A stretch of DNA of 64,000 nucleotides from Pseudanabaena sp. (lineage in GTDB: Bacteria > Cyanobacteriota > Cyanobacteriia > Pseudanabaenales > Pseudanabaenaceae). The stretch is from the NCBI GenBank assembly GCA_003249035.1, contig QBMK01000003.1, positions 62,001 to 126,000 of the forward strand, read 5' to 3'. A model generated the notes under the pieces. The model searched no databases and had not been told where the DNA came from. It saw only the letters and a list, made by a program, of their open reading frames with translations. Shown here in pieces: positions 2,891-3,834 of the stretch. Position numbers and translations under genes: made by a program. How positions within the stretch are numbered: the stretch's first letter is position 1; each line of letters opens with the position of its first letter.

Positions 2891-3166
2891 TTAGGTAAGC
2901 TCAGCAAAATCCTTTAAATACTGTTGACAAGGAATTAAACGTTCCTGAGTTGGTACTCTCAGTACTTCACGGTTGACCTGATAGGTTACACCTCGAAAAA
3001 CCAGCACATAACTTGATGACTCGGTAACTGTCATTGGATCGTCATAGGGTTTCGTCCAATGGGTAGTACCTCGATACATCAGTTTTGATGGTGCAGTGTA
3101 TTTGCTACTCTCTCCAAGACTAAGGGCTTGAGGCTCATACTTGCTTCCGCGATAAATCAATTGCAT
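2891..3166 (-). CDS. DUF4278 domain protein
   Basis: 91 residues, small and soluble. The N-terminus MQLIYRGSKYEP and the internal LMYRGTTHW and LVFRGVTYQVNR are the repeated 'L.YRG..Y' signature of DUF4278, a family of unknown function common in cyanobacteria. The start has an AGGA sequence about 10 nt upstream. It is the last gene of a minus-strand run bolA, peptide, peptide, peptide, DUF4278, 42 nt beyond peptide copy 1. It could share a transcript with that copy, since the nearest terminator upstream lies before copy 1. No function can be given. Confidence 0.8.
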   Translation of the reverse strand: MQLIYRGSKYEPQALSLGESSKYTAPSKLMYRGTTHWTKPYDDPMTVTESSSYVLVFRGVTYQVNREVLRVPTQERLIPCQQYLKDFAELT

Positions 3167-3208: not shown

Positions 3209-3301
3209 CTAGAGAGTGGAAAGAGCATTTAGCAAAAGCAATCCACCAATTGATACAACGTAGACCTTGATAATGAATCCACCGAATGAAGTTACTGACA
3301 T
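3209..3301 (-). CDS. Small membrane peptide (30 aa), tandem copy 1
   Basis: 30 residues: it begins MSVTSFGGFIIKVYVVSIGG and ends LLLLNALSTL. Short polar N-terminus, then one hydrophobic helix from about residue 8. A very strong ribosome-binding site, AGGAAAGGAGC, lies just upstream of the ATG. The gene at 3610-3702 has the same length and about two thirds identical residues, and roughly 85 bp of 5' leader are also conserved between the two. Coding is supported by the exact length match, conservative replacements (I/F, V/A, L/V) and conserved Shine-Dalgarno. I do not recognise the family: it is not PsaM, PsaI, PetG, PetL, PetN, PsbX or Ycf12. It could be a small photosynthetic-complex subunit, a stress peptide or a type I toxin-like peptide. 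Confidence 0.75.
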   Translation of the reverse strand: MSVTSFGGFIIKVYVVSIGGLLLLNALSTL

Positions 3302-3440
3302 TGCTTTGCTCCTTTCCTAAAACTCTTGATGAGATTAGTATCGAGTTTTTAGAAAGTTGGTGTGGTGATGTAATCCTTTGTCTCAGGATGACTTTCTCAC
3401 TAGCGTTTTGTGATCGAGATCGCGCAATCCACAGTCAATA

Positions 3441-3476
3441 AAAAAGCACCTTGCCCAAACATGGGATAGGTGCTTT
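3441..3476 (-). terminator. Terminator between peptide 3 and peptide copy 1
   Basis: Read on the minus strand: AAAGCACCTA, loop, AAGGTGCTTTTTTATTG. The 8-9 bp stem followed by six T residues is a good intrinsic terminator. It lies just downstream of the 3498-3590 peptide, so copies 1 and 2 probably have separate promoters. Confidence 0.65.
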
Positions 3477-3497
3477 GAATAGTTAAAGAAGATAAAT

Positions 3498-3590
3498 TTA
3501 AAAACTTTGTGCGGCATCGGTGAGTGCCGTGATTGCGATCGCTATCCCCACAAATTTAACAGCGAAAAATACGATGTGAAAGATATCCAT
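3498..3590 (-). CDS. Small membrane peptide (30 aa), third member
   Basis: 30 residues: it begins MDIFHIVFFAVKFVGIAIAI and ends TALTDAAQSF. A single hydrophobic helix covers most of the peptide. It starts 19 nt after the stop of peptide copy 2, with only a weak GGA upstream, which suggests translation coupled to copy 2. Its sequence differs from copies 1 and 2 but shares length, hydrophobic profile and a faint F..K/KF...I...ALT pattern, so it may be a diverged paralogue. The HIP1 site GCGATCGC lies inside the coding sequence. No function recognised. Confidence 0.55.
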   Translation of the reverse strand: MDIFHIVFFAVKFVGIAIAITALTDAAQSF

Positions 3591-3609
3591 GTTTTTTTGT
3601 CCAAAAAAA

Positions 3610-3702
3610 TTAGAGAGTAGAAAGAGCATTTACCAAAACTAAACCGCCGATTGTTACTGCGTAGAACTTGAAGATAAAACCGCCGAATGTATTTACTGAC
3701 AT
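3610..3702 (-). CDS. Small membrane peptide (30 aa), tandem copy 2
   Basis: 30 residues: it begins MSVNTFGGFIFKFYAVTIGG and ends LVLVNALSTL, with one predicted transmembrane helix. The Shine-Dalgarno AGGAAAGGAGCAAAACAA is nearly the same as that of copy 1. The upstream leader shares TACATCACC, GATACTAA and the ribosome-binding region with copy 1, so the duplicated unit includes the regulatory DNA. Followed after 19 nt by the third peptide gene. See copy 1 for possible roles; the cellular partner is unknown. Confidence 0.75.
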   Translation of the reverse strand: MSVNTFGGFIFKFYAVTIGGLVLVNALSTL

Positions 3703-3834
3703 TTGTTTTGCTCCTTTCCTTTAACCTTATGTACTTAGTATCTAGGTTTTTTAAGGTAGCAGCGGTGATGTAGGTAGTGGGGACTTGTGATCGCGATCGT
3801 AATCTACGTACTTTGTGAACAATTGTCGGTTTTC

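Follow-up and report, generated by a model that had tools for sequence, protein, structure and literature searches.

The one-helix membrane peptides of 27-30 residues found in filamentous Pseudanabaena are a previously unlisted family, one that gene callers have overlooked. Three 30-codon reading frames in the window (the whole 64,000-nucleotide stretch of DNA that was analysed) are real genes, best read as members of a lineage-specific family of paralogous single-helix membrane peptides comprising subfamilies A, B and C. An earlier note on this DNA had described undescribed small membrane peptides duplicated together with their leader, a description that is supported here; the present analysis adds the homology between A and B, the CRP-type boxes and a second copy of the array elsewhere in the genome. 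Short membrane peptides usually come to light singly. In this case an entire paralogous set is delimited by a promoter model, with some members that had escaped sequence search or given it only weak matches, in a genus of tractable filamentous cyanobacteria. The features of the array are as follows.

3610-3702, minus strand: peptide A1, 30 aa, MSVNTFGGFIFKFYAVTIGGLVLVNALSTL; reading frame, homologues, purifying selection, predicted helix over residues 2-29 (pLDDT 93)
3498-3590, minus strand: peptide B, 30 aa, MDIFHIVFFAVKFVGIAIAITALTDAAQSF; downstream gene of the A1-B unit, A paralogue, predicted helix over residues 2-29
3209-3301, minus strand: peptide A2, 30 aa, MSVTSFGGFIIKVYVVSIGGLLLLNALSTL; reading frame with its own promoter and no B partner, 22 of 30 residues identical to A1
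3443-3476 (U tail 3442-3437), minus strand: intrinsic terminator after B, fold -19.5 kcal/mol, z -4.85
3711-3720, minus strand: Shine-Dalgarno site of A1 (AGGAAAGGAG), from the sequence
3309-3318, minus strand: Shine-Dalgarno site of A2 (AGGAAAGGAG), from the sequence
3786-3801, minus strand: CRP-type dyad of A1 (TACGATCGCGATCACA), its centre 53 bp before the -10 element
3765-3770, minus strand: CATCAC half-site of A1, some 30 bp before the -10 element, near-invariant in the promoter alignment
3735-3740, minus strand: -10 element TACTAA of A1 (within GATACTAA), from the promoter alignment
3409-3424, minus strand: CRP-type dyad of A2 (CGCGATCTCGATCACA), its centre 76 bp before the -10 element
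3365-3370, minus strand: CATCAC half-site of A2, from the promoter alignment
3335-3340, minus strand: -10 element TACTAA of A2, from the promoter alignment

The three frames, each exactly 30 codons long and opening with ATG, lie where the earlier note had placed them. A1 and A2 had been proposed as tandem duplicates sharing about two thirds of their residues and a strong ribosome site; the identity given above agrees with this, and AGGAAAGGAGCAAA is found upstream of both. The conserved leader of about 85 bp that had been claimed for them is indeed similar (about 50 of 68 positions identical, in the last 67 bp), but most of it is promoter, the -10 element lying about 35 bp before the ATG. B starts 19 nt past the A1 stop, and while an in-frame ATG further upstream would yield 43 aa, its relatives favour the 30-residue start. 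The terminator already reported after B proves to be bipartite, with no shuffle equally stable on folding; it was missed by a consensus scan because of the loop limit and was detected by folding, and its hairpin is also present in the array copy on contig C55, with the inner stem changed. The flanking BolA and DUF4278 genes were both confirmed by Pfam. The DUF4278 gene (window 2891-3166) begins 42 bp past the A2 stop with no terminator seen between, and may be co-transcribed with A2; it is not kept as a neighbour at the other fetched loci.

By sequence comparison, B is an ungapped paralogue of A and not merely the third hydrophobic peptide that it had been taken for. Alignments of A and B made independently correspond over their full length with no gap (hhalign probability 96, E 2.9e-9), and when eight B peptides are scored against the A profile as a PSSM, each is reached by 0 to 8 of 20000 composition-preserving shuffles (1 of 20000 for the B of the window). 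The pairwise comparison of A1 with B alone is weak (p 0.02), and it is the profiles that carry the evidence for homology. Many A copies are followed immediately by a B; several others have none. Subfamily C also matches A end to end (E 6.6e-10), in an alignment that includes one A/C intermediate from G020; most C members outscore almost every shuffle, and the two most divergent do so less clearly.

The pattern of substitution points to purifying selection on both A and B. Median pairwise dN/dS is about 0.17 for A and about 0.24 for B, the genes being short and single pairs noisy; dN and dS are 0.13 and 0.64 between A1 and A2, and 0 and 0.30 between the two B copies of this genome (window and C55). 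Residues K12, Y14, L21, N25 and S28 are invariant in A. The earlier note had left its case to hang on homologues in related genomes and on unequal rates of synonymous and non-synonymous change; homologues were found in relatives, and dN is well below dS. AlphaFold predicts a single helix over residues 2-29 in A1 and B alike, as is expected for any such hydrophobic peptide, and the best 19-residue hydropathy of the peptides (1.8-2.4) places them among small hydrophobic single-helix proteins.

The distribution of the family is centred on the genus. The A1 peptide matches two further copies in its own genome, A2 among them, as well as homologues across the genus, and a profile of A and B finds matches in 19 of 26 genus genomes. 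A degenerate DNA pattern run against GTDB genomes matched 13 contigs, 11 of them labelled Pseudanabaena, one Phormidium tenue and one an uncultured cyanobacterium. Across 291 genomes of the class, no credible member was found outside the family to which Pseudanabaena itself belongs. One genome of a sister genus in that family (G029; L191, G029:C5, near 3458000) encodes MSIYKIANFIFKLYGVSLFALLATSALTAR and then MSIYKSFLFTVEYCLISTAALLIISTVVPS, a 30+30 pair that resembles A-B and is preceded by a CRP-like box. At position 12 this pair combines K in A with E in the second peptide, an arrangement suited to a salt bridge between the two; the second peptide is closer to its own A (p 0.003) than to Pseudanabaena B (p about 0.07) and so is only a possible orthologue of B. 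Among the genus genomes, no peptide was detected in G001, G006, G007, G012 and G022, and G015 has the promoter only, while all 16 of the 16 genomes with an Oxidored_molyb orthologue keep at least one peptide, though the copies move. Searches of PHROGs, PADLOC and the PDB returned nothing credible. A phage or plasmid origin was considered and rejected, with no plasmid match and a single phage match at E 3.

The promoters are as characteristic of the family as the peptides. When upstream DNA is aligned on the -10 element, a dyad near TGTGATCNNGATCACA is followed by ATCAC about 30 bp upstream of the -10, then by GATACTAA and some 30 nt of leader that includes a strong Shine-Dalgarno site. A dyad scoring at least 12 of 14 is present in 20 of the 21 A promoters with a recognisable -10, and 18 of these 20 dyads are centred either 53 or 76-77 bp upstream of it, two positions that are 23 bp, or about two helical turns, apart; at other TACTAA sites, a dyad at either distance occurs in 0 of 138. 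Because the promoters are related by descent, this statistic measures conservation of position and not 21 independent events. HIP1 (GCGATCGC) is abundant in cyanobacteria and overlaps most of the dyad boxes, so that the telling cases are the dyads without HIP1 (TGTGATCGCAATCACA, TGTGATCAATATCACA, AGTGATCATAATCACA and AGTGATAGAAATCACA). HIP1 as the whole explanation of the boxes was ruled out, since these dyads sit at the same spacing, and C promoters and promoter remnants likewise retain the spacing with non-HIP1 dyads such as AGTGATAGAAATCACA. The dyad at the fixed promoter position is of the form TGTGAN6TCACA, many copies being near-consensus and not exact, and its sequence suggests that it is bound by CRP. 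That the same CRP-type promoter is kept while the family multiplies and moves suggests a regulated membrane function.

The RETV-R motif in the recognition helix of E. coli CRP reads TGTGA. Four CRP/FNR-type proteins are encoded in the genome, namely NtcA, a PtrA-like protein, a third whose recognition helix is divergent, and a CRP homologue (L138:1489-2181) that carries RETVTR in its recognition helix, carries FGEMAPLDQVPRSTDV as well, and has a cyclic-nucleotide pocket that is catabolite-activator-like. In comparison with the PDB this last protein resembles catabolite activators (E about 5e-16), its best match being another Crp-family regulator, and it falls below the NCBIfam CRP equivalog cut-off; on these features it is the best candidate for the regulator. 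In cyanobacteria the consensus for CRP sites is TGTGAN6TCACA (PMC2633013). Exact TGTGATNNNNATCACA sites occur just twice in the genome (G000:C33:202834 and G000:C59:64089; L086 and L087), and both are candidates for other CRP targets.

A promoter model built on sequence only, from 81 promoter/leader positions in 19 sequences of which one came from a C locus, recovers A loci together with new loci in the genus. Behind the new loci lie reading frames of 26-27 aa that make up subfamily C (for example MTEINIGGFIFQSYAAAIVFLLLVIIL), and the model also led to a TTG-start A-like frame of 24 codons in G024. Before the model was applied, C loci had yielded one weak partial match to the A/B profile (G013:C55, E 0.03) and three matches to the A1 peptide on its own (E 0.18-0.57). 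Outside the genus the promoter model gave no convincing match. Searching for a promoter and then for the reading frame behind it is a route to unannotated small proteins, and the loci recovered are testable targets for CRP/cAMP signalling, the lineage-specific outputs of which are poorly known in cyanobacteria.

Copies of the peptides occupy different gene neighbourhoods, save at one common locus. Ten of the fetched A copies lie behind an Oxidored_molyb gene and the remainder are in unrelated places, and no conserved partner gene stands beside the copies at the fetched loci. In the genome of the window, the Oxidored_molyb locus retains a decayed promoter only. The array itself is duplicated on contig C55, where A-B at 196000 is followed by a 1.8-kb interruption, the terminator, the promoter and an A2 cut after about 5 codons. 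The match to C55 starts at the CRP-type box and amounts to 91.8% for window 3437-3799 and 88.7% for window 3285-3488. In this second array copy (L004, G000:C55, 5904-8306) the interruption of about 1.8 kb carries an amine-oxidase-like reading frame, with the terminator stretch on both of its sides and A2 truncated.

Promoters without a peptide were found on contigs C11 and C21 and in G010 and G015. At L182 (G000:C21:14156-14211) a degenerate peptide promoter, dyad included, lies upstream of a lipoprotein-like frame (MKKYISFAVSLVLFSVSACTSST...) and is possibly a captured promoter. At L181 (G010:C61:38277-38320) a peptide-type promoter has dyads 76 and 31 bp from the -10 and a terminator-like hairpin within about 70 nt, with no peptide, and might make a very short RNA. 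At L173 (G015:C136:3036-3110) the promoter and Shine-Dalgarno site are intact in a genome with no detected peptide, and the ATG now opens an unrelated frame.

The reading that we favour, plausible though still tentative, is that these are CRP/cAMP-activated accessory membrane peptides, with A and B probably associating. A CRP-family activator, most likely a SyCRP1-type cAMP receptor protein, would bind the dyad at about -65 or -88, and perhaps also the ATCAC half-site near -43, to switch on a promoter that has no -35 consensus. The short leader and strong Shine-Dalgarno site would give efficient translation of A, and B, with little Shine-Dalgarno site of its own, would be read by coupling. The peptides are predicted to insert as one helix, the N-terminus probably cytoplasmic because positive residues lie in the N-terminal half (positive-inside rule). 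A and B, with their common register and K12 position, would pair up and/or join a larger membrane protein, whose activity would be tuned while the regulator is active, and the two probably act together. Counted against this explanation are the HIP1 overlap, the lack of a conserved partner gene that would indicate a target, the several congeneric genomes without the family, and the commonness of solo A copies, from which it follows that A does not need B. A bolder version, in which the dispersed CRP/cAMP-controlled A, B and C peptides form defined membrane hetero-oligomers as a peptide-only effector layer of second-messenger signalling, is rather doubtful. The earlier suggestion of stress-induced peptides fits only loosely, in that the promoter is of CRP type.

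Alternatively, the peptides may work like TisB, as type I toxin-like depolarising peptides that reduce growth and proton motive force in response to a stress relayed by a CRP-type regulator, a reading that we regard as unlikely. The type I toxin-like array had been among the candidates of the earlier note, and there is a physical likeness: one helix of about 30 aa has K12 in the register of TisB from E. coli (K-12 reference), and in a comparison with TisB the B of the window outscores its composition-matched shuffles (p 0.0006). That is the top result among nine peptides; other Pseudanabaena B peptides reach p 0.02-0.05, and neither A nor C gives a significant score. Type I toxins typically show copy-number turnover and lineage restriction, as this family does. 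Type I toxin-antitoxin systems have one report in cyanobacteria, msoT1/msoA1 (PMC12390103). Against a TisB-like role, Pfam, NCBIfam and PADLOC gave no toxin-family match for the peptides, no Rfam match reached the gathering score, the peptides have little net charge, and neither an antitoxin RNA nor a long structured leader was found, the leader being short with an exposed Shine-Dalgarno site. Synonymous sites diverge substantially, and thus there is no sign of an overlapping antisense RNA.

A role as a new small component of a photosynthetic or respiratory complex is improbable. Subunits of the PsaM, PetN and NdhP type are of similar size and have a single helix, which the one confident AlphaFold helix resembles, but no PDB chain of such small subunits is matched. 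The small thylakoid subunit that had been proposed is not supported as a core subunit, given that the family scarcely extends beyond one genus, is missing both from other cyanobacterial genera and from several near-complete congeners, and shows turnover of copies. The peptides are unlikely to be core subunits of a photosystem, b6f or NDH complex.

A secreted or cell-contact two-peptide antimicrobial of bacteriocin type, made of A plus B, is less probable again: a paralogous, lineage-specific pair with dispersing copies would suit it, but the neighbourhoods of the copies share no recurring leader, transporter or immunity gene, the peptides are weakly charged and very hydrophobic, and A is often alone. 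Leader peptides or spurious frames near HIP1-rich intergenic DNA, to which a weak Leu_leader match (E 0.08) and the HIP1 overlap of many boxes might point, are scarcely credible and are refuted in the main by dN/dS and distribution, with dN far below dS, invariant residues in A, downstream genes that vary from locus to locus in most cases, and a terminator immediately behind B.

Among known systems, TisB, the SOS-induced type I toxin of E. coli, is similar in length (29 against 30 aa), in its one helix and K12 register and in having a dedicated transcription factor; it differs in that here no antisense antitoxin, inhibitory structured leader or Pfam TisB match was found, charges are fewer, the family is a multi-paralogue one (A, B and C) and control is of CRP and not LexA type. 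MsoT1/MsoA1 of Microcystis (PMC12390103) likewise involves a small hydrophobic cyanobacterial membrane protein, but MsoT1 has 63 aa, two predicted membrane helices and a pI of 11, and is accompanied by an antisense RNA. HliR1/SliP4 and Norf4 of Synechocystis 6803 (PMC5126843, PMC12850537) are also cyanobacterial single-helix proteins, of 31-37 aa, that annotation missed; these are reported as single genes, HliR1 being high-light induced and Norf4 conserved across cyanobacteria, and their descriptions set them apart from the Pseudanabaena-centred peptides with their CRP-type promoter. Lastly, the promoters of the SyCRP1 regulon (PMC2633013) share the TGTGAN6TCACA dyad, for example TGTGATCCAGATCACA at slr0442. 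The known targets of that regulon include pilus/motility and other larger genes, whereas here the targets would be peptides, and the dyad stands in two fixed phases with an added ATCAC half-site.
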